NCBI GenBank assembly: GCA_934561555.1
Contig: CAKTGQ010000006.1
Location: forward strand, 61,075 to 125,074
Direction of reading: 5' to 3'
Source of the DNA: an uncultured Faecalibacterium sp.
GTDB taxonomy: Bacteria; Bacillota; Clostridia; Oscillospirales; Ruminococcaceae
DNA length: 64,000 nt
Positions within the stretch are counted from its first letter, which is position 1; every line of letters begins with the position of its first letter. The position numbers were made by a program, and so were the translations under genes. The notes under the pieces are model-generated. The model was not told where the DNA came from. It saw only the letters and a program-made list of their open reading frames with translations, and ran no database searches. This document shows, piece after piece, positions 9,733-18,658 of the stretch.

Positions 9733-10821
9733 ATGCTTGCAATCCTTGCAAAGGACGGGCAGCAGACCCCGCTGGACTGCAATGACTACTGCATCGTCCA
9801 TAACTGGAACGGCTGGGAGGATACCGTAAAATTCAACATGCCCCGGGGACATGCCCAGATGCGCCTACTGACCGAGCGCACCCGCCTTGTGGAAAAGACC
9901 GAAGGGCAGCTGTACGCCGTTACCAGCATCAACACCGGCAGAAACTCAACCGCCTATGAGGCAAAGCTGGATCTGGACAGCCTGTGCACCGGGCTGCTGA
10001 AAAACTGGAACAACTACGTCAAGATCTTCTTTTTCAGCAAGGGACCGCAGTCTATGGCCGATACGGTGCGGCGCGCCCTTGCGGACGCAAAAATCTCCGG
10101 CTGGGAACTCACTGCCCCGAATGCCGACACTGAAAAGCTTGCGATTGACAGCTTTTACGGCACCGCGCTTGATCTGGTGCAAAAGGCTGTGGACGTGTGG
10201 AAGAAATACCCCGTGCGCTTTCTCGTGACAGAAACCGGCACCCGGCAGCTGCGCATCCTTGACCCCGGCTCCCGCGCTTTGTGCGGAGCATACTTCACGG
10301 ACGAGCTTAACTTGCTGGAGCAGCCCTGCTTCAAGGGCAAGGCCGACCCCGGCGACAGCTACTACACCGCCCTATATCTTGCTGGCAATGGGTGCAGCGT
10401 GGAGGTGGAGAACCACGACTACGACCCACGGGTGATCCGGCATTACGAAAGCGACAACTCCATCTCGGATAAAAATGCCCTGACCATCAAGGCGAACGCC
10501 ATGGTCAAGGCTGCGGCAGCGCCCCGGCGCTCCTACAGCTGCAAGGTGGCAGACCTTGCCCGGCTGCGGCCGGAACGCTACCAGCATCTGGCTTTTGGCC
10601 TGTACGACAAGGTGGTGCTCATGGACCGCGACCGGGGCACGAACAGCACAGTGCAGATCGCGCAGTACACGGTGTTCCCCTACTGCCCGGAAAGCAACAC
10701 CGTGCAGCTGAACAGTGTGGCGGGCACGATCTCCGCAACCAGCAAAAGCTACTCCGGCGATGTTGTACAGTACACAGACCCAGACCAAGAAACGCAGGAG
10801 GATGAAAATGCAGATTCTTAA
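9733..10821 (+). CDS. phage tail-associated protein (Tal-like minor structural protein)
   Basis: A protein of 362 aa with start at ATG 9733 after AAAGGAG. The N-terminal part resembles the baseplate hub (gp27-like) fold of Tal proteins in Firmicute siphophages. At this length it lacks the long C-terminal peptidase or lysozyme domain found in larger relatives. Its 3' end overlaps the following gene by 14 nt. It should form the tail tip under the Dit hexamer. Confidence 0.68.
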   Translation: MLAILAKDGQQTPLDCNDYCIVHNWNGWEDTVKFNMPRGHAQMRLLTERTRLVEKTEGQLYAVTSINTGRNSTAYEAKLDLDSLCTGLLKNWNNYVKIFFFSKGPQSMADTVRRALADAKISGWELTAPNADTEKLAIDSFYGTALDLVQKAVDVWKKYPVRFLVTETGTRQLRILDPGSRALCGAYFTDELNLLEQPCFKGKADPGDSYYTALYLAGNGCSVEVENHDYDPRVIRHYESDNSISDKNALTIKANAMVKAAAAPRRSYSCKVADLARLRPERYQHLAFGLYDKVVLMDRDRGTNSTVQIAQYTVFPYCPESNTVQLNSVAGTISATSKSYSGDVVQYTDPDQETQEDENADS

Positions 10822-12901
10822 AATGGACTTTCAGTCTCAGAGCACCCCGCCGGTCGTCCCTGTCATGCAGTCCGATGCACAGAGCAGGTTCATCGGCATC
10901 GCGCTCTACGATGGCGGCGCTCCCTATGCCGCCCCGGAAAACGCAGCGTACACCGTGCAGTATCACGGCCCCGGCCCCAATAATATGGGCTGGTATGACA
11001 CCATCAGCACCGGAAACAATACACACCCCGCAGTCACCGTGGATGCCTCCAACAAGCACATCGTCACGCTGGAACTGGCCGAGCAAGCGTTGCGGGTCAA
11101 TGGAAACGTCTTTATCAACCTTTGCGTGGTCACCAGCACCGGTTACATGCTGCACACCTTTCCTATCCTCTGCCGCGTCACCGGTGCGGCCTACATTGAC
11201 CCTGTGGCAGTGCGGAGCTTCTTCTATGTTACCGGCATCACAAACGATCAGTGGCTTGCCTACGTCACCGCCTGCCAGGACGCCCAGAACCGGGCAGAGG
11301 CCGCCGCCGCAACGTTTCAAACCGACCCCACCCTCTCCCTCCCCGGTAAGGCGGCGGATGCAAAAGCGACTGGAGATGCGATTGGTCAGCTAAAGGAAGA
11401 TATAGCTGACGCCGAAAAAAGAATCACCTCAAAAATGACGTTGATTGAGCCAATAAACCTATGGGGAATGAATAATATAACAGATGGCTATGTGGATCTA
11501 AATGGAAATACGCACGAATTAACTGAATTGTGCTATATGCCTTTGGATGTATATTCAGGTGATATTTTAAGACTTCTTAACTGGACAGAATCACAAAATA
11601 AATACAATACCTATTCGATGCGTTTTATTACGACATATGATGTAGATGGAAAAGCTGTTGCAAGCAGTGGTTCAGAGAATGCAAATAATTTTGTCATCCC
11701 TGATGGCATTACAAAGGTCATTATCACAATAAGTAAAAAGATTGTTTATCCTTGTCTGATGATAAATCCCGTTTCAAATCCAAAAGAACCAATTGAATTT
11801 TTTATACCTTATTATGTTGCCGATGATGGCTTTATTGATAAAGATACAATTATTGAAAAAGCAATTGATAAAATAATGGACAAAGTTAATAATTCTTTTA
11901 TCAAGTTATCACCTAGTTGCATTCTTGAAAATGGACTTTTATGGAATACAGACAGTGACAGAATGGTGGTTACATTCACTCTTGGAAGTACATCAGATGC
12001 TTTATTTGTTTGTGCGAATGCAAGCGGAATCGGAAGATTATATTATGTAAATTACAAAACAGGTAAAATTGGAACTGTCAAAAGTGATGATATAACAGTT
12101 ATTCCGACAGCATGGGGATATTTTGAAGATATTACAATACCAGCAGTAATAGGAAGAATGTACGCATTAACTATTGAAAAAAAGAATGGAACGACATTTA
12201 CGATGATATTAAAAGATTTGTCATCACTTGAAACTCAAAAATTTACTAATACAAATGACCAAGGAAGTGGCAATGGCGTTAGAACTGTGATAACAAGCGG
12301 AAGTCCGATAATTAATAACTTTATAACATTTTCAACACAAAATGCGAATCCATATATTATGTTTATTGGAGATAGTTTCATTGAAGGTAATCAGCTTACT
12401 ACAAAAAACAAAGATAGCAGATATTGTGCGTTAGTAAGAGATACTATTGCAGTAAATGGACATGATACATTTATTTATGGATTAGCTGGCAGAAACAGTA
12501 CAGATATATCAACAGCATACTACGAACAAGTGAAAGGTATTTGCAGACCAAAATATGCGTTTCTCGAAATTGGTACGAATGATAGGAATTATGACACATG
12601 GTTAAGTAACATGACAGCTTTAATCAGAGATTTAAAGAATAACGGAATCATTCCTATTCTTTGCACGTTAACACCTATTATAGGCAATCCTGAATCTTAT
12701 AATGATAACGTAATGCCTAATGTCAACGAATGGATTAAGAAAAGCGGATATAAATATGTCGATTTCAATGCAGTACTTACATCAGATGGAGTTACACAAA
12801 TTTCTAGTTATTTCTTATCCGATGGGTGTCATCCTAACATTGATGGCAATGCCGTTATGTTTGAAAAAATAAAGGTTGATGTGCCTGAACTGTTTAGTTA
12901 A
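10808..12901 (+). CDS. chimeric baseplate/receptor-binding protein with C-terminal SGNH esterase domain
   Basis: A protein of 697 aa; AGGAGG lies six bases before ATG 10808. Residues 1-195 look like a BppU-type baseplate upper protein (N-terminal beta domain, then short coiled coil) and are GC-rich like the neighbours. From about 11395 the DNA becomes strongly AT-rich to the stop. The last ~180 residues form an SGNH/GDSL hydrolase: GDS with Ser523, 'GTND' block III, and 'DGCHPN' with Asp672 and His675. The esterase probably trims acetyl or other esters from surface glycans during adsorption. The composition break indicates acquisition of a new receptor module from an AT-rich donor. Confidence 0.85.
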   Translation: MQILKMDFQSQSTPPVVPVMQSDAQSRFIGIALYDGGAPYAAPENAAYTVQYHGPGPNNMGWYDTISTGNNTHPAVTVDASNKHIVTLELAEQALRVNGNVFINLCVVTSTGYMLHTFPILCRVTGAAYIDPVAVRSFFYVTGITNDQWLAYVTACQDAQNRAEAAAATFQTDPTLSLPGKAADAKATGDAIGQLKEDIADAEKRITSKMTLIEPINLWGMNNITDGYVDLNGNTHELTELCYMPLDVYSGDILRLLNWTESQNKYNTYSMRFITTYDVDGKAVASSGSENANNFVIPDGITKVIITISKKIVYPCLMINPVSNPKEPIEFFIPYYVADDGFIDKDTIIEKAIDKIMDKVNNSFIKLSPSCILENGLLWNTDSDRMVVTFTLGSTSDALFVCANASGIGRLYYVNYKTGKIGTVKSDDITVIPTAWGYFEDITIPAVIGRMYALTIEKKNGTTFTMILKDLSSLETQKFTNTNDQGSGNGVRTVITSGSPIINNFITFSTQNANPYIMFIGDSFIEGNQLTTKNKDSRYCALVRDTIAVNGHDTFIYGLAGRNSTDISTAYYEQVKGICRPKYAFLEIGTNDRNYDTWLSNMTALIRDLKNNGIIPILCTLTPIIGNPESYNDNVMPNVNEWIKKSGYKYVDFNAVLTSDGVTQISSYFLSDGCHPNIDGNAVMFEKIKVDVPELFS

Positions 12902-12953: not shown

Positions 12954-13637
12954 ATGCTCCCTATCATGGACGTTTCCCGCTGGCAGGGCAGCATCGACTG
13001 GGACAAGGTCAAGGCAAGCGGCCTTGTCTCCGGTGTGATGCTGCGGGCGCTGGGCAACAGCCCCAAAGACAAGCCCAGCAAGCCGTACATTGACCCTACC
13101 TTTGAGCGCAACTGTGCCGAGTGCAAGCGGCTGGGTATCCCCTGCGGCGTGTACTACTACTGCAAGGCTGTCAACACGGCAGAAGCAGATACAGAACTTG
13201 CCCTGCTGCGCAAGGTGCTGACCGGCAAGACGCTGCAGCTGCCGGTGGCGGTTGACATTGAGGACGCCTATGTGCAAGCGCCGCTGAACAAGCAGACCCT
13301 GACGGACATTGCCGCCCACGCGCTTGGCACGGTAGAGCGTTGGGGCTTCTACGCCATGCTGTACACCGGGCTGTATTTCGCCCGCGACAACCTGTACATG
13401 ACCGGCGCAGCGCTCAAGCCCTACGATGTTTGGCTGGCAAGATACCCCAGTGACAAGAGCAAGAGCAAGACCAAGCCGGAGGACAAGCCCAAAACGGATT
13501 TTGCCTTTGGCTTGTGGCAGTACACCAGCACCGCCAGCGTGCCGGGCGTGAGCGGCAACGTGGACTTGAGCCACGCCTACAAGGACTACACCAAAATTAT
13601 TGCAAAGAAGGGCTTGACCCGTCTCCGGGAGGTATAA
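12954..13637 (+). CDS. phage endolysin, GH25 lysozyme
   Basis: A protein of 227 aa covering a complete GH25 muramidase domain: the opening 'MDVSRWQG' with Asp6, 'VAVDIED' with Asp101 and Glu103 as the expected catalytic acidic residues, and the 'LWQYTST' ending motif near 190. It cleaves the N-acetylmuramic acid-N-acetylglucosamine bond of peptidoglycan at lysis. No signal peptide and no separate cell-wall-binding domain are seen, so export would need the holin. GC content returns to that of the other phage genes. Confidence 0.9.
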   Translation: MLPIMDVSRWQGSIDWDKVKASGLVSGVMLRALGNSPKDKPSKPYIDPTFERNCAECKRLGIPCGVYYYCKAVNTAEADTELALLRKVLTGKTLQLPVAVDIEDAYVQAPLNKQTLTDIAAHALGTVERWGFYAMLYTGLYFARDNLYMTGAALKPYDVWLARYPSDKSKSKTKPEDKPKTDFAFGLWQYTSTASVPGVSGNVDLSHAYKDYTKIIAKKGLTRLREV

Positions 13638-14362: not shown

Positions 14363-14641
14363 ATGGCAAGCACTACATACGAGCATTTTGTTGACGCCAA
14401 CAAAATGTACGCCGCACAAGAGCAATTTCGTGACATCACGAAAATGGGCTACGATTTTGTTAAGGCCAACAAAATCGGGTGCTTAAAGCCCGTTTTTGCA
14501 AAAAAATCTATCATTTTTGCTCTTAATATCGCTTTTGGCGTGTCTAAGCGCAACGCGGGGCAGCTGCCGCAGCCCTTCTGGCTCGGCGTTGCTCATGGCG
14601 GCGGCTCGCGTAGTCTTTCCGCCAGCGTTGCAAGGGCTTGA
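14363..14641 (+). CDS. small phage protein of unknown function
   Basis: A protein of 92 aa, starting after AAGGAGG. I do not recognise the family. The N-terminus is polar and aromatic, and the C-terminus has 'LPQPFWLGVAHGGGSR'. The end of the frame overlaps the next ORF in the +1 frame by 47 nt. The second frame carries a sigma-like HTH, so the two might form one product by frameshifting, or be two overlapping genes. Confidence 0.5.
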   Translation: MASTTYEHFVDANKMYAAQEQFRDITKMGYDFVKANKIGCLKPVFAKKSIIFALNIAFGVSKRNAGQLPQPFWLGVAHGGGSRSLSASVARA

Positions 14642-14819
14642 TGCAGAACAGATAAAAGCTGTGATAAAACGTGCGCCGCTTGGGAGGTATGACCGGAAAA
14701 TCGCCCGGTTGCGGTACGTTGACCAGCTATGTCAAGTTGATATTGCAGCGCGTGTGCCGTATTGTCGCACATCAATTGGCAATAGGCTAAAAATCATTGA
14801 TAAAATGCTGGATATTTAA
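14595..14819 (+). CDS. small sigma-70 region 4-like HTH protein of the prophage
   Basis: A protein of 74 aa from ATG 14595. The frame is open further upstream but without a ribosome binding site. 'YDRKIARLRYVDQLCQ' followed by 'DIAARVPYCRTSIGNRLKII' reads as a helix-turn-helix like the -35-binding region of sigma factors and of phage ArpU-type late regulators. It closes the late operon before a strong terminator. Which start is used, and whether it is fused to the upstream frame, is unresolved. Confidence 0.5.
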   Translation: MAAARVVFPPALQGLDAEQIKAVIKRAPLGRYDRKIARLRYVDQLCQVDIAARVPYCRTSIGNRLKIIDKMLDI

Positions 14820-14889
14820 AAATCCCCTGCTTTGCCAAAGCCCTGCGTGCCACGCGGGGTACTTTATAGGCAAAGTGGGGGATTTTTTT
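14818..14889. terminator. large bidirectional terminator hairpin at end of phage late operon
   Basis: AAATCCCC-TGCTTTGCC on the left pairs with GGCAAAG-TGGGGGATTTTTTT on the right, with an inner hairpin (about 14841-14858). An A-run on the left and a T-run on the right allow function on both strands. It separates the rightward late genes from the leftward HTH gene that ends at 14893. Confidence 0.8.
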
Positions 14890-14892
14890 GTT

Positions 14893-15216
14893 TTACAGCA
14901 GCTTATAGTGCTCTGCCAGCAAAAAGCGGACATATGCGGGGCACTCCCTGATGCCGCCATACCAGTTCTGCACTGTGCGCCGCGGGATGCCTGCACCCTT
15001 CGCAAAGGCGGTCTGGGAAAGACCGGCAAGCAAGATCAGTTCCTTCATGGACAGGTGCGCCAACTCCCAGATGCGGGACAGCCTTGCCTTTTCGGCGTCC
15101 AGATCGACGCACCCGGCGGCATCGTCCGGTACGCTGAGGGTGACATTGCTCAAAAAAAATTCTTTTACAGCACCGGCCTCACTTGCCATAGAAAAAAGTT
15201 CACCAACGGTATACAT
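14893..15216 (-). CDS. prophage helix-turn-helix regulator
   Basis: A protein of 107 aa on the minus strand with AGGAGG before the ATG at 15216. The C-terminal half ('KELILLAGLSQTAFAKGAGIPRRTV' region, broken here for length) reads as a DNA-binding helix-turn-helix followed by 'NWYGG', as in Xre-like or recombination-associated DNA-binding proteins. The N-terminal half is acidic. Being opposite to the late operon and next to an accessory cassette, it may repress or tune accessory genes. Target unknown. Confidence 0.55.
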   Translation of the reverse strand: MYTVGELFSMASEAGAVKEFFLSNVTLSVPDDAAGCVDLDAEKARLSRIWELAHLSMKELILLAGLSQTAFAKGAGIPRRTVQNWYGGIRECPAYVRFLLAEHYKLL

Positions 15217-15284
15217 AAAACCTCCTAGATTTTTCACCCACGCTGTGGTACACTATGGATATCTCAATGTGAGGTTTCTTTCAC

Positions 15285-15327: not shown

Positions 15328-15612
15328 TTACTCCATATCTTCCAGAGCTTCAAGATACTTCGGGTAAAGGTCTTCCACGACGGCCTGTCTTTCAACGTCG
15401 TCCAGATCGCCGTTCATGAACGCCTCGCCCTCTTCATCGGAGAGTTCGATACTGGTAGTGACCATCAGGTCGCGAGCATCCAGATGAGAGGTCTTGACGT
15501 CGCCATCATCGGTGATGTGCGCGTAGATCATCCAAACGCCGTTATCGTACTCAATTTCAGTACCGGTGGCCATAACCTTGGTTGCGAACTCGTCAGCAGT
15601 GAGCTTTTTCAT
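15328..15612 (-). CDS. small acidic prophage protein, unknown
   Basis: A very acidic protein of 94 aa, start chosen at 15612 behind GGAGGT. I recognise no domain. It begins 'MKKLTADEFATKVMATGTE' and ends in an Asp/Glu-rich stretch. Small acidic proteins at prophage ends can be anti-defence or DNA-mimic proteins, but nothing here proves that. It is divergent from the five-gene cassette across a 22-bp palindrome. Confidence 0.5.
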   Translation of the reverse strand: MKKLTADEFATKVMATGTEIEYDNGVWMIYAHITDDGDVKTSHLDARDLMVTTSIELSDEEGEAFMNGDLDDVERQAVVEDLYPKYLEALEDME

Positions 15613-15681
15613 AATTGTTACCTCCATGTGTCTGTGTTGTGTCTTTCACTGTCTTTTTTAAAATTTTATACGCATCGCGTG

Positions 15682-15736
15682 CAAAAAGTTCAAGCGCCCA
15701 CACAGCCCTGTTCCGTGTGGGCGCTTGAACTTTTTG
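15682..15736. repeat. perfect 22-bp inverted repeat between divergent genes
   Basis: The arm 15682-15703 is perfectly complementary to 15715-15736, with an 11-nt loop. A/T runs at both outer ends mean it could work as a bidirectional terminator, but it lies upstream of both flanking genes rather than after one. It may insulate the two divergent transcripts or bind a regulator. Confidence 0.85.
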
Positions 15737-15808
15737 TCCCTCGTTGTGCGTTCGTTGTCTTTTGTTTTCAGCTGATGCAGTACACTGGATGCACAAGGAG
15801 GGATGCAC

Positions 15809-16276
15809 ATGTTCAAGTATGATCCTTATACAGGAGATCCTATTCCACAGAGACCGGCTGGATTTGGCTGGGGATGGGATTCACCGGAAGCATATCAACG
15901 ACCTGTCAGGCAGGAGCAAAAAGAAGCGCACACGCCGTGGACGATGGTGCCTTGTCCGGCAGATGTAGACAAGGTAAGCGTGCAGCCGGGCGAAACGAAG
16001 TGGATCATGGTGCAGTCCGACCAGATTTTTGCCGTCAAGACAGCCAACGCGATGGGATATGCACCGGCGGAATACTACCGCTTTGAGCAGATAGACCCGG
16101 CGGTATTGACCGCGCCTGCATCTTTAGAAGCTGCCCAGCAGCTCACGCGAGAAGATGTTGAAAAGATCGTGGAAACGAAAGCAGCCGAAATGCTTTCACA
16201 GTATGAAACGATTTTCACGCGGCAGGCACCCGCGCAGACTGCCGTAAAGGCCAAGAAGGAGGCAACACATGAGTAA
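15809..16276 (+). CDS. accessory cassette protein 1 (phage-associated, unknown)
   Basis: A protein of 155 aa. ATG 15809 is preferred over 15803 because AAGGAGG then lies seven bases upstream. The N-terminus is rich in Pro, Gly, Tyr and Trp. The middle ('SDQIFAVKTANAMGYAP...YYRFEQI') resembles small prophage proteins of gut Firmicutes that share an 'IF-VK-D-G-RF' pattern. The C-terminus is helical. It is the first of five co-directional genes and overlaps the second by 8 nt. Function unknown. A TACACT -10-like box lies at 15781. Confidence 0.6.
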   Translation: MFKYDPYTGDPIPQRPAGFGWGWDSPEAYQRPVRQEQKEAHTPWTMVPCPADVDKVSVQPGETKWIMVQSDQIFAVKTANAMGYAPAEYYRFEQIDPAVLTAPASLEAAQQLTREDVEKIVETKAAEMLSQYETIFTRQAPAQTAVKAKKEATHE

Positions 16277-16604
16277 TCCTTTAGCAAGTCGATTAGGCGC
16301 ACAGCAAGCCCAACAGACGGCACAGGGAAACGGCCTGATGGCAAGGCTTCCCTGCGCGATAAGGCAGGCATCAAAAATGATGTCGGTCATCAAGGCGGCG
16401 CAGAATCCACAGGCTGCGCTCATGGACTACTGCAAGAAATCTGGTGCTTTCAATGGATACACAGGTTCACAGGATCCAGAAAGCATGACCCGGTGGCTGT
16501 GCGAAAAGAACGGAATACCGGTGGATGATATCCTCAATATGGTTCAAGGCTCCGGTGCACAGGGGCTTGGCAATACACTCACAAGATTTTTGAAAGGTGG
16601 CTAA
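16269..16604 (+). CDS. accessory cassette protein 2 (unknown, helical)
   Basis: A protein of 111 aa with start behind AGGAGGC inside the end of the upstream gene. The N-terminus is Gln/Ala-rich ('LGAQQAQQTAQGNG'), followed by a helical part with 'NPQAALMDYC'. Similar small 'NP'-containing helical proteins accompany the same neighbours in other gut prophages as far as I recall. No catalytic motif is visible. The gap to the next gene is only 3 nt. Confidence 0.55.
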   Translation: MSNPLASRLGAQQAQQTAQGNGLMARLPCAIRQASKMMSVIKAAQNPQAALMDYCKKSGAFNGYTGSQDPESMTRWLCEKNGIPVDDILNMVQGSGAQGLGNTLTRFLKGG

Positions 16605-16607
16605 ACT

Positions 16608-17219
16608 ATGGCTATGGATGATTCTATGAGCTTCGGCGGCGGTGGCATCTGGATCTTCGGTCTGCTTGTCCTTCTGGCTCTTCTGTTCGGCGGTAATGGA
16701 AACGGCCTGTTCGGTGGCAATCGCGGCCCCATGTTCCCGCCCAACGTTGCAACCTCTGGTGATGTTCAGCGTGCGACCGATTTCGCAGCACTGGAACGTC
16801 AGAACAACGAAAGCGTTGCTGCTACCCGGCAGGGCGTTTATGATGTTGCTGCAGCCGTAAAGGATGGAAACTACAACATTCTGGGCGAACTGCGCGACCT
16901 CGAAAGCGCTTCCAACGCTGGTTTTGCACAGCAGCAGGTTTGCTGCTGCGAGACCAACCGCAATATTGATTCTGTCCGCTACGACATGAGCAATTTTGCG
17001 GCTGCGATCAAAGAGAACCAGACCGCAGGCATTCAGAAGGTGCTGGATCAGCTGGCAACCAACCGATACAGCGATCTGGAGCGGGCATACAACCAGCAGG
17101 CTATACAGCTGGCCGTTTGCGGCATCCCCAAATCCTCCCCCTATGGCTATCAGCTCTCCCCCGCATGGGGTCCTGCTCCCGGCTATGGACCCGGCCCATT
17201 CTGGGGCAATGCAGCCTGA
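16608..17219 (+). CDS. accessory cassette protein 3, Gly-rich membrane-anchored protein
   Basis: A protein of 203 aa. The Gly-rich start is followed by one hydrophobic segment (about residues 14-28, 'IWIFGLLVLLALLFGG'), a Gly/Asn-rich stretch, then a long helical domain with the triple-Cys motif 'CCCETNRNIDSVRY' and a Pro/Gly/Tyr-rich end. I recognise this layout from many Firmicute prophages, always without known function. A Cys cluster might bind metal or crosslink. The gene ends at a strong terminator. Confidence 0.6.
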   Translation: MAMDDSMSFGGGGIWIFGLLVLLALLFGGNGNGLFGGNRGPMFPPNVATSGDVQRATDFAALERQNNESVAATRQGVYDVAAAVKDGNYNILGELRDLESASNAGFAQQQVCCCETNRNIDSVRYDMSNFAAAIKENQTAGIQKVLDQLATNRYSDLERAYNQQAIQLAVCGIPKSSPYGYQLSPAWGPAPGYGPGPFWGNAA

Positions 17220-17248
17220 TATGCCCTAAGATTCCGCTATAACAGCGC

Positions 17249-17283
17249 AGCCCCCACGGCAAACGCTGTGGGGGCTTTTTTTT
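17249..17283 (+). terminator. terminator after cassette gene 3
   Basis: A 9-bp GC-rich stem (17249-17257 with 17268-17276), a 10-nt loop and a run of eight T residues form a canonical intrinsic terminator. The last two cassette genes may therefore be expressed by read-through or from their own promoter. Confidence 0.85.
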
Positions 17284-17306
17284 ACAAAAGAAAGGAGTAA
17301 AACACC

Positions 17307-17756
17307 ATGATGAACTGCATGAAAAACCCGCACTATAAGAGCGCCGTCGAGACGTACAACACAGCAACCCAGACCCTCACAACTACCCCTGCCCCGCTTG
17401 GGCTGACCGGCACGGTTCTCACAAACACCGGCGTCTCTCTTTCCCCAGAGCAAGCGGCAATAAAAATCAATAACAGCGGTCTGTATCAGGCATCTGCAAA
17501 CATCCAGGCGCTTGCAAGTGCCGCAGGAAACATCACAATTGCCCTGTACCTTGATGGTGTCCTACTGCCCGAAACGCAGCGTACTGTGACCGCAGCCGCA
17601 AACGATACAGTCTCTGTGACCACAAACATGCTCCGGAGCGTACCGTGCAGCTGCAACACCCACACATTACAGCTCTATGGGTGGGTCGTGGGTGCCGCTG
17701 CCGCAGAAGTGACCTTCGCGCAGCTTGCAGTAGTCAAAGAAGCAGGGAGGGCATAA
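17307..17756 (+). CDS. accessory cassette protein 4, BclA/TNF-like jelly-roll candidate
   Basis: A Thr/Ala/Val-rich protein of 149 aa with starts at 17307 or 17310 behind AAAGGAG. The pattern of alternating strands ('GLYQASANIQALASAAGNITIALYLDG', split in the protein by short turns) resembles the C-terminal trimeric domain of BclA-like exosporium and phage head-fibre proteins. It may decorate the virion. The assignment is structural guesswork from strand pattern. Confidence 0.5.
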   Translation: MMNCMKNPHYKSAVETYNTATQTLTTTPAPLGLTGTVLTNTGVSLSPEQAAIKINNSGLYQASANIQALASAAGNITIALYLDGVLLPETQRTVTAAANDTVSVTTNMLRSVPCSCNTHTLQLYGWVVGAAAAEVTFAQLAVVKEAGRA

Positions 17757-17760
17757 AGCC

Positions 17761-18102
17761 ATGATGGACGAAAAAAAACTGTCCGGATTCAAAAAAACGC
17801 TGATACAGGCCGCAAAACAGATGGCAGAAGAGTACAGCGACGCAATGAACTACGCGGATTTTGCGGTCGAGTACAGATCTGTGTGCCCTTCTGCAGCAGC
17901 GGAATGGTACAAGCTTTCCGGTGATGAAATCGAGCACGCCGAAATCAACTCCCGCATCGGACAGAAGGTGCTTTCCATTGTCGAAACAGAAGATGCTGCA
18001 GCAGCGGCAGACCTTCGCAGCATGTGGGCGATGGCTGAAGAGCTTGTTTCCGGTCTGCACGAATCTGTCATAAAACAGCGAGCGGCCTATGTAAAGCAAT
18101 AA
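17761..18102 (+). CDS. accessory cassette protein 5, ferritin-like four-helix candidate
   Basis: An all-helical protein of 113 aa starting 4 nt after the previous gene. 'EYSDAMNYADFAVEY' and 'YKLSGDEIEHAEI' place Glu and His residues as in ferritin-like or haemerythrin-like bundles (E-x-x-H pattern 'EIEHAEI'), so metal binding is possible. It is the last gene before the prophage end and is followed by a strong terminator. Function unknown. Confidence 0.55.
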   Translation: MMDEKKLSGFKKTLIQAAKQMAEEYSDAMNYADFAVEYRSVCPSAAAEWYKLSGDEIEHAEINSRIGQKVLSIVETEDAAAAADLRSMWAMAEELVSGLHESVIKQRAAYVKQ

Positions 18103-18171
18103 CAAAAAGAAAATGTGCTTTTTTACATATCAACCAGATGCAGGGGAAGATCAAGTAAGAGTACATAGCAG

Positions 18172-18210
18172 CAGCACCGGGGAGCCTGACGGTTCCTCGG
18201 TGCTGTTTTT
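18172..18210 (+). terminator. terminator at the right end of the prophage
   Basis: A 15-bp stem (18172-18186 with 18191-18205, two G-U pairs), TGAC loop and TTTTT tail. It ends rightward transcription before the ssrA gene, which reads in the opposite direction. Confidence 0.85.
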
Positions 18211-18229
18211 GCGTTTATGAAGCTGTTTT

Positions 18230-18311
18230 TCAGCGGTGTGTTACCAAAAATGTTACCATGATAAAGAAAAGAACGTCAATTCTCAATGAAATGACGTTCT
18301 TTTTGCGTGGT
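18230..18311. other. probable prophage attachment region at ssrA 3' end
   Basis: Phage genes stop here and the 3' end of the tmRNA gene (CCA end at 18308) begins, a common target of tyrosine integrases. Two direct copies of TGTTACC (18238 and 18251 regions), separated by a short A-rich spacer, could be integrase arm sites. The other att copy and the integrase lie outside the window, so the core repeat cannot be defined here. Confidence 0.5.
18270..18304. terminator. bidirectional terminator next to ssrA
   Basis: AGAACGTCA (18270-18278) pairs with TGACGTTCT (18292-18300), followed by TTTTT on the plus strand and by a T-rich tract on the minus strand. It would end the tmRNA transcript after 3' processing. 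Confidence 0.7.
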
Positions 18312-18658
18312 GGAGGCGATGGGAGTCGAACCCATGTCCGAAAAGAGCTCAGTGTAGGTGTCTCCGGGTGCAGGCGATCTACAACATTCCCGCCGCGCCA
18401 CGCCGATCGTCAGGCTAGCGCTTTGGTAGCTTCATGAGTTCCTGCCGGTCCGCAAAGCTTAGGTCCGTTCAGGTGCTGTGTCTAAAGGACGCCCCGGCCC
18501 CACACGACACAAGAGTGGGCGGAACGCGCAGCACTCAGGCTGCGAGCAACTGATAATTATTGTTGTCAGTTAATTTTTTTGGAGGAGTTATAGAGCAGTT
18601 CCCCCACTGCTACCCGCTGCCCAGACCTCGCTCCCCCCGTCGAAACCTTTACGCCCCC
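18308..18658 (-). ncRNA. ssrA: transfer-messenger RNA (tmRNA)
   Basis: About 351 nt on the minus strand. The 5' end GGGGGCG pairs with 3' CGCCTCC before ACCA to form the tRNA-like acceptor stem. The T-arm reads TGGGTTCGACTCCCA. The tag frame, read leftward from about 18575, ends in ...NNYQLLAA followed by a stop at about 18538. tmRNA rescues ribosomes stalled on broken mRNA, adding a degradation tag, together with SmpB encoded just upstream. The 3' end is the probable phage attachment site. Confidence 0.93.

Follow-up and report, generated by a model that had tools for sequence, protein, structure and literature searches.

A five-gene cassette at a Faecalibacterium prophage end recurs in gut phages and may serve surface or envelope display

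Five small genes, g1 to g5, lie at the end of a prophage in a stretch of 64,000 nucleotides from an uncultured Faecalibacterium sp. (contig CAKTGQ010000006.1; this whole stretch is referred to here as the window). Computation showed that these genes belong together and that the relatives of the module genes are under purifying selection. Our leading explanation, which we hold tentatively, is that the cassette exemplifies a conserved late module of phages, one that would serve display at the surface or envelope. This explanation is drawn from the fold of g4, the anchor-like character of g3, neighborhoods that hold lysis, terminase, coat, or tail-fiber genes, a nearby sigma-like gene, and the hairpin after g3.

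Recurrence and conserved gene order

A pattern for CCCETNRNID retrieved 48 viral stretches, and family hidden Markov models (HMMs), seeded by position, were iterated on 54 records (the 48 stretches, the window, L001 to L004, and L053); the families were thus grouped on records selected by a single motif. In these 54 records, the HMMs matched g1 in 44, g2 in 39, g4 in 30, and g4b, a second family occupying the fourth slot, in 14. The conserved order is a sigma-like gene, g1, g2, g3, sometimes a gene of 60 to 85 residues, g4 or g4b, and one of four slot-5 families. Among records with enough flanking sequence, g1 was present in 34 of 37, g2 stood in its place in 27 of 37, a g4-type gene was found in 33 of 37 and a g5-type gene in 29 of 30, and in 25 of 34 a member of the sigma-like family preceded the cassette. 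Left out of these counts were eight near-duplicates (recognized by matching offsets and sequences, with no computed identity), two Segz_1 records, and the window.

Since these loci had also served to train the HMMs, and g3 is present in the counts by construction, the synteny required independent tests. A tblastn search with the g1 of L005 returned 11 phage records, 10 of which contain g3; the remaining record ends inside g1. By coordinates, g3 lies downstream on the same strand in Dulem 33, Dulem 35, MT835739, and MT838775, while L003 (which also belonged to the HMM training set) and Butyrivibrio virus Ceridwen have g3 by HMM, and four of the other five have it just downstream. Ceridwen (L062), with the recorded host B. 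fibrisolvens DSM 3071, carries g1 to g4 in order. Across 291 genomes from the class of the nearest genome, g1 was detected at four places in three genomes; at three of these places (two in one genome), g3 and g4 follow downstream, with g2 recognized at two of the three. The fourth place (E = 5e-4) falls inside a 637-residue frame without g2 to g4 companions, and three further g3 matches in the same genomes cover only the hydrophobic stretch. As a control, the HMMs found no g1 to g5 in 25 unrelated viral loci, with one weak sigma-like match only. A second scan with a g1 motif gave 29 stretches: 4 had been found before, each with g3, and the other 25 matched none of g1 to g5.

Synteny from two directions rejects a chance adjacency of five unrelated genes. 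A sequence-only reading of this DNA had likened the set to gene groups of other gut-Firmicute prophages, always without function; the synteny counts and the g1-first tests bear out the recurrence, and we found no stated function for the set. Neither a lack of co-occurrence nor clear homology of each gene to unrelated structural genes was encountered. The ratio of nonsynonymous to synonymous substitution rates (dN/dS) was 0.03 to 0.31 in 34 of 49 gene pairs (g1 to g4, g5b, and gX) from related viral records (L007, L024, L032, L037, and L048; the window is not among them), and the other 15 pairs had saturated dS. A tblastn search of annotated phages gave eight records for g3, one for g1, and none for g5. 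The window's own subfamily is narrow; the module in the wider sense is common.

Proteins encoded by the cassette

Structure models were made for g4 and g5, each as a single chain. The g4 model is a confident beta-sandwich jelly roll of the TNF/C1q-like type, which supports the BclA/TNF-like candidate of the sequence-only reading. Its structural matches are led by BxpB/ExsF, BclA heads, and EDA-A1, which tie within 1 Z of one another, and lower-ranked matches include the knob domains of the phi812 central spike (9eul) and of the short tail fiber of cyanophage A-1(L) (8ke9). Against BclA_C (PF18573), the window's g4 scores 23.4 bits, below the Pfam gathering cutoff of 38. Unlike ExsFA/BxpB of the Bacillus exosporium and the BclA C-terminal domain, g4 is phage encoded, is accompanied by g3, and shows no collagen-like Gly-X-Y stalk in its 149-residue translation; phage spike and short-tail-fiber knobs belong to long tail proteins, but g4 stands on its own as a protein and is encoded away from the tail operon. 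The two slot-4 families, g4 and g4b, have no detectable sequence relation, and a profile comparison rejected their treatment as a single family. The only Pfam match for g4b was a weak one to Lac_Phage_Head (0.019) in 1 of 14 members.

The g3 protein has the Gly-rich, membrane-like character and the CCCETN motif (16941 to 16958) first noticed in its sequence. Residues 9 to 27 have a Kyte-Doolittle mean of 2.28 over 19 residues, and by this hydropathy measure alone a membrane-like segment (mean of ≥1.6) occurs in 30 of 44 family members. The CCC triplet is invariant in the g3 alignment, in which most viral rows had been selected by that motif, and in 39 of 42 members the last 30 residues contain at least two Cys, a C-terminal cluster that is absent from the window's g3. 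A large protein database holds 296 homologues of g3 and 53 of g1 (both at an E value of ≤1e-3). The match of g3 to phrog_16490 (E = 3.8e-16) spans residues 9 to 168 of 203, which is most of the protein, and that to PHROG 9288 is at 0.0027. The g3 of L003 matches both PHROG 9288 (6.9e-12) and PHROG 16490 (9.1e-8), which links the gut and enterobacterial g3 families; this link is independent of our HMM, which had included Segz_1. Both PHROGs, of unknown function, are listed as single families, without the module.

A middle portion of about 55 residues is conserved in g1 (by eye). The L003 relative of g1 matches phrog_21718, the window's g1 matched no PHROG, and g2 had no match among curated families. 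Sequence searches of the PDB with g1, the g3 profile, g4, the Bacteroides phage g3, and the gene next to the latter gave nothing below an E value of 0.09. In five records, a small open reading frame (ORF) stands directly upstream of g1 (L062, 18531 to 18908; L067, 4468 to 4842; L068, 2925 to 3305; L103, 2959 to 3357; and L105, 3135 to 3350). Its C, H, and D/N positions resemble those of papain/C39-like peptidases; the L062 copy had no Pfam match.

Ferritin-like proteins of the rubrerythrin type are four-helix bundles with two ExxH-type metal motifs. The AlphaFold2 model of g5 (predicted local distance difference test score, 97.2) has three helices, and the protein has one ExxH motif, which places it outside that definition; its structural matches in the PDB are generic helical bundles, and it does not match Rubrerythrin (PF02915). 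Residues E24, E56, and H59 are nearly invariant in 17 sequences, 9 of which are close relatives, and the His of the motif is replaced by Arg in one homologue. Rubrerythrin is matched by 5 of 17 slot-5 relatives (best, 2.7e-9). Among those examined singly, L004, L011, and L043 pass the cutoff and L017 falls just short, with all four matches lying mainly over the first helix pair. The proposal that g5 is ferritin-like is partly supported, by some of its slot-5 relatives and not by a match of the window's own protein, which is possibly ferritin derived rather than a ferritin itself. In the large protein database, g5 has 34 homologues. A comparison rejected g5 and g5b as a single family, and matches of slot 5 to TreTu_C (9 of 17 members; best E value, 0.001) were taken as chance. 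DUF7841 (PF25223) is matched by the alternative slot-5 proteins of L009 (1.5e-20) and L066 (1.9e-19) and not by the window's g5. One study describes ferritin-like enzymes in Gratiaviridae (PMC8008677).

Organization of the cassette in the window

ORF calling confirmed five co-directional small genes on the plus strand at the prophage end (Table 1). The spacing is tight except at one point: g1 and g2 overlap by 8 nt, as had been noted, 3 nt separate g2 from g3, 87 nt separate g3 from g4, and 4 nt separate g4 from g5. A start for g1 at 15809 is more likely than one at 15803, given its better spacing to an AAGGAGG box and the MF or MY with which relatives begin. The order runs from the lysis region, in which two further small ORFs are read as holin-like, through the sigma-like gene, a hairpin, two minus-strand ORFs, and a second hairpin to g1 to g5, a third hairpin, and the transfer-messenger RNA (tmRNA) gene. 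This agrees with a site beyond the lysis genes and opposite two minus-strand ORFs, one helix-turn-helix (HTH)-like (14893 to 15237) and the other without a convincing match (15328 to 15627). The strong hairpins at 14818 to 14887 and 15681 to 15737 make it likely that the cassette is a separate unit; a simple scan with a loop limit of 8 did not list the latter.

TABLE 1 Features of the cassette and its surroundings in the window
Feature	Position	Strand	Description
GH25 lysin	12954-13637		Lysis region, before the cassette
Sigma-70-region-4-like HTH gene	14595..14819	+	Upstream of the cassette; family HMM; start at 14595 or 14628
Strong hairpin ending the sigma-like gene	14818-14887		-43.6 kcal/mol, 81 nt folded
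HTH-like ORF	14893-15237	-	
Acidic ORF	15328-15627	-	99 residues; no convincing family match
Strong symmetrical hairpin upstream of g1	15681..15737	.	T-flanked on both strands; -40.7 kcal/mol for 15675-15745
g1	15809..16276	+	Longest ORF from 15803; Pro/Tyr/Gln-rich N terminus, conserved middle, helical-looking C terminus
g2	16269..16604	+	Small, Gln/Met/Asn-rich
g3	16608..17219	+	Gly-rich hydrophobic N terminus, helical-looking body, CCCETN motif
g3 membrane-like segment, residues 9-27	16632..16688	+	Kyte-Doolittle
CCCETN motif of g3	16941..16958	+	Sequence
Terminator-like hairpin between g3 and g4	17249..17276	+	12-bp stem, T tail
g4	17307..17756	+	TNF/C1q-like jelly roll, 149 residues
g5	17761..18102	+	Three-helix protein with E24, E56, H59
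Terminator-like hairpin 3' of g5	18170..18207	+	Hairpin scan and folding
tmRNA gene	18308-18658	-	

The terminator-like hairpin at 17249 to 17276, in the g3/g4 gap, argues against one plain operon for g1 to g5. A -10-like box near 15781 had been proposed as the cassette's own; a sigma-70 scan found no site directly upstream of g1, which leaves a single operon with its own sigma-70 promoter unsupported. Across records, a terminator-like hairpin lies within 150 nt after g3 in 14 of 41, the window included, compared with 0 of 39 after g1, 0 of 32 after g2, 0 of 34 after g4, and 29 of 880 random segments from the same records; an earlier count with a different scan length gave 14 of 45. The hairpins of L007, L024, and L037 are similar, and most of the 14 differ in sequence. 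In filamentous phages, a terminator separates the major from the minor coat gene, and by analogy the post-g3 hairpin suggests that g1 to g3 may be made in excess over g4 and g5. The upstream sigma-like gene overlaps the end of an ORF at 14363 to 14643. Sigma70_r4 was matched by 12 of 20 scanned members of this family; the window's own member had no Pfam match and a weak match to phrog_36 (E = 0.0027).

The prophage end (18210 to 18310) borders on the tmRNA gene at its 3' end, and GTTACC is present twice near 18239 to 18257; the second attachment site falls outside the window. Upstream of the lysis region, a plus-strand ORF (10715 to 12901) encodes a putative tail receptor-binding protein, the C-terminal part of which weakly matches the phage lipase family phrog_6102 (1.9e-6) and scores 0.0013 against the acetylxylan esterase AxeA1, far under the cutoff. 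From these similarities, its product may be an esterase with acetylated surface glycans as its substrates.

Spread of g3 relatives beyond the module

The g3 relative of Segz_1 matches 177 phage records, mostly of enterobacterial phages, and that of a Bacteroides phage matches 53 records, among them records of crAss-like phages and four that come from two viruses assigned to Methanomassiliicoccales. One of the latter, vir335 (L065, 4632 to 5555), has its g3 relative labeled phrog_16490 in the record. In the enterobacterial phages, the genes that follow differ, and g3 alone is in common with the module; in Segz_1 and eiAU, three other small genes of about 120, 160, and 87 residues follow it (L053, 10416 to 11530), the first of which is annotated as a putative pyrophosphatase in Escherichia phage KurtStettler. 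The crAss-like and Bacteroides phages have in common with the module only g3 and a g5d-like gene (HMM; E values, 2e-26 to 7e-4), and comparison did not show the genes after g3 to be g4b relatives. In KurtStettler (L054, 3499 to 5031), an ORF of 510 residues annotated as a putative lateral tail fiber chaperone has the g3 relative as its C-terminal part; its N-terminal part resembles a tail-fiber end with a chaperone-like domain.

Function of the module and competing explanations

If the module serves display, a late regulator would switch the cassette on, and the hairpin after g3 would make g1 to g3 abundant and g4 and g5 scarcer. Together with g1 and g2, g3 would form a membrane- or virion-attached base; g4 would trimerize into an exposed binding head, like BclA/ExsF and phage spike knobs; and g5 and the other slot-5 helical proteins would act as accessory or assembly factors. 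The contact between g3 and g4, the late timing, the location, and the function are what we infer, and we place a virion location slightly ahead of the late host envelope.

Several observations weigh against the display module. In the window, it lies outside the tail operon. Surface proteins of capsids or tails do not usually have a membrane-like segment, and such a segment accords equally well with a role in the host envelope. Most records lack the post-g3 hairpin (it is found in 14 of 41), and some of those that have it are related. Viral-contig scans with the single window proteins g1, g3, and g5 returned nothing, the g3 alignment, scanned against species genomes, hit a single locus (L004), and g5 is in none of 61 near genomes. 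In-frame stop codons interrupt the g3 relative of the T5-like Salmonella phage vaffelhjerte (L057, 4294 to 5009), where the annotation shows just a 330-nt ORF. Of the three copies in bacterial genomes, that of L067 (2371 to 3604) has its g3 divided between two ORFs, either broken or mis-sequenced; given these two cases, g3 may be dispensable. There was no g3 match in crAss001 (tblastn; HMM on half its genome), a phage whose virion proteins have been studied by proteomics (PMC6235969). We found no virion proteomics of any module member, and the passages searched on crAss001, eiAU (PMC3025963), 9g (PMC4276943), Vid5 (PMC6266253), and B. uniformis phages (PMC8143477) gave no test of g3.

A less probable but still substantial alternative is a late host-envelope module, in which g3 would insert into the host membrane late and, with g4 and g5, block superinfection or tune lysis without entering the virion. 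The membrane-like segment in 30 of 44 g3 proteins accords with this, as does the proximity of the window's cassette to lysis genes. Read by eye, L001 and L066 show such a neighborhood too, with the cassette of L066 following holin and lysin ORFs. A Pfam scan of 65 of the 154 upstream-flank proteins called in 34 loci likewise gave Amidase_2 four times, GH25 three times, and holin three times. Against it, g4 heads resemble exposed binding domains, and the neighbors in other records are terminase, coat, or tail-fiber genes instead of lysis genes. In L050, the second gene after the cassette encodes the large terminase, as recognized from a PDB match (E = 4.7e-14) and annotated phage relatives, and the small gene in between reads by eye as the small terminase; in cr124_1, g3 lies five genes before the annotated large terminase. 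By eye, the L003 cassette sits between minor-head-like and scaffold-like ORFs. The g3 relative of Segz_1 is one small gene after the coat gene, and those of pSf-1 and eiAU follow tail or tail-fiber genes. The upstream scan, and a downstream scan of 50 of the 108 proteins called, found no terminase family at 1e-5.

That downstream scan gave Phage_integrase and Resolvase three times each, which would suit a lysogenic-conversion cassette (moron) expressed from the prophage and altering the host surface or metal or oxygen handling. We regard this as improbable. The location next to the tmRNA gene, where the prophage ends, the separate unit with its flanking hairpins, and the Rubrerythrin matches of some slot-5 relatives speak for it, but the window's g5 has neither such a match nor a second ExxH motif, no sigma-70-type promoter was found, and g1 was matched in only 3 of 291 genomes, one of them weakly. 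The g3 relatives in enterobacterial and crAss-like phages, which are not known as temperate, also weaken the lysogen benefit that the sequence-only reading had suggested. Least probable is an accessory module for head assembly or DNA ejection, in which g3 would sit inside the virion and insert into membranes while the other proteins act in assembly: the hydrophobic Gly-rich segment and helical-looking body of g3 would fit, as would the coat or terminase genes found close by in Segz_1, L050, and cr124_1, but the TNF-like g4 is left unexplained and g3 is broken in the T5-like phage.

Implications for gut phages

Existing annotations of module parts read "hypothetical," "spike protein/glycoprotein," "outer capsid protein/viral fiber," or "putative lateral tail fiber chaperone," and searches of the open-access literature found no description of the module. 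It is conceivable, although on the unlikely side, that the display module amounts to a previously undescribed modular phage surface organelle, with a Cys-rich g3 anchor, interchangeable slot-4 beta heads and slot-5 helical partners, and a stoichiometry set by a terminator. Such a unit would be common to gut phages of Firmicutes-type hosts, with its g3 part also present in phages of Bacteroidota and Proteobacteria and in gut-archaeal viruses. Since Ceridwen, with its recorded host, carries g1 to g4, the role of the module can be tested. The module is common in gut phages and has kept its order under purifying selection, yet its annotations are hypothetical or guesses. Should it act in display or adhesion, it could matter for the persistence of gut phages at surfaces or for host choice; should it act in the envelope, it would be a common exclusion or lysis-control system.

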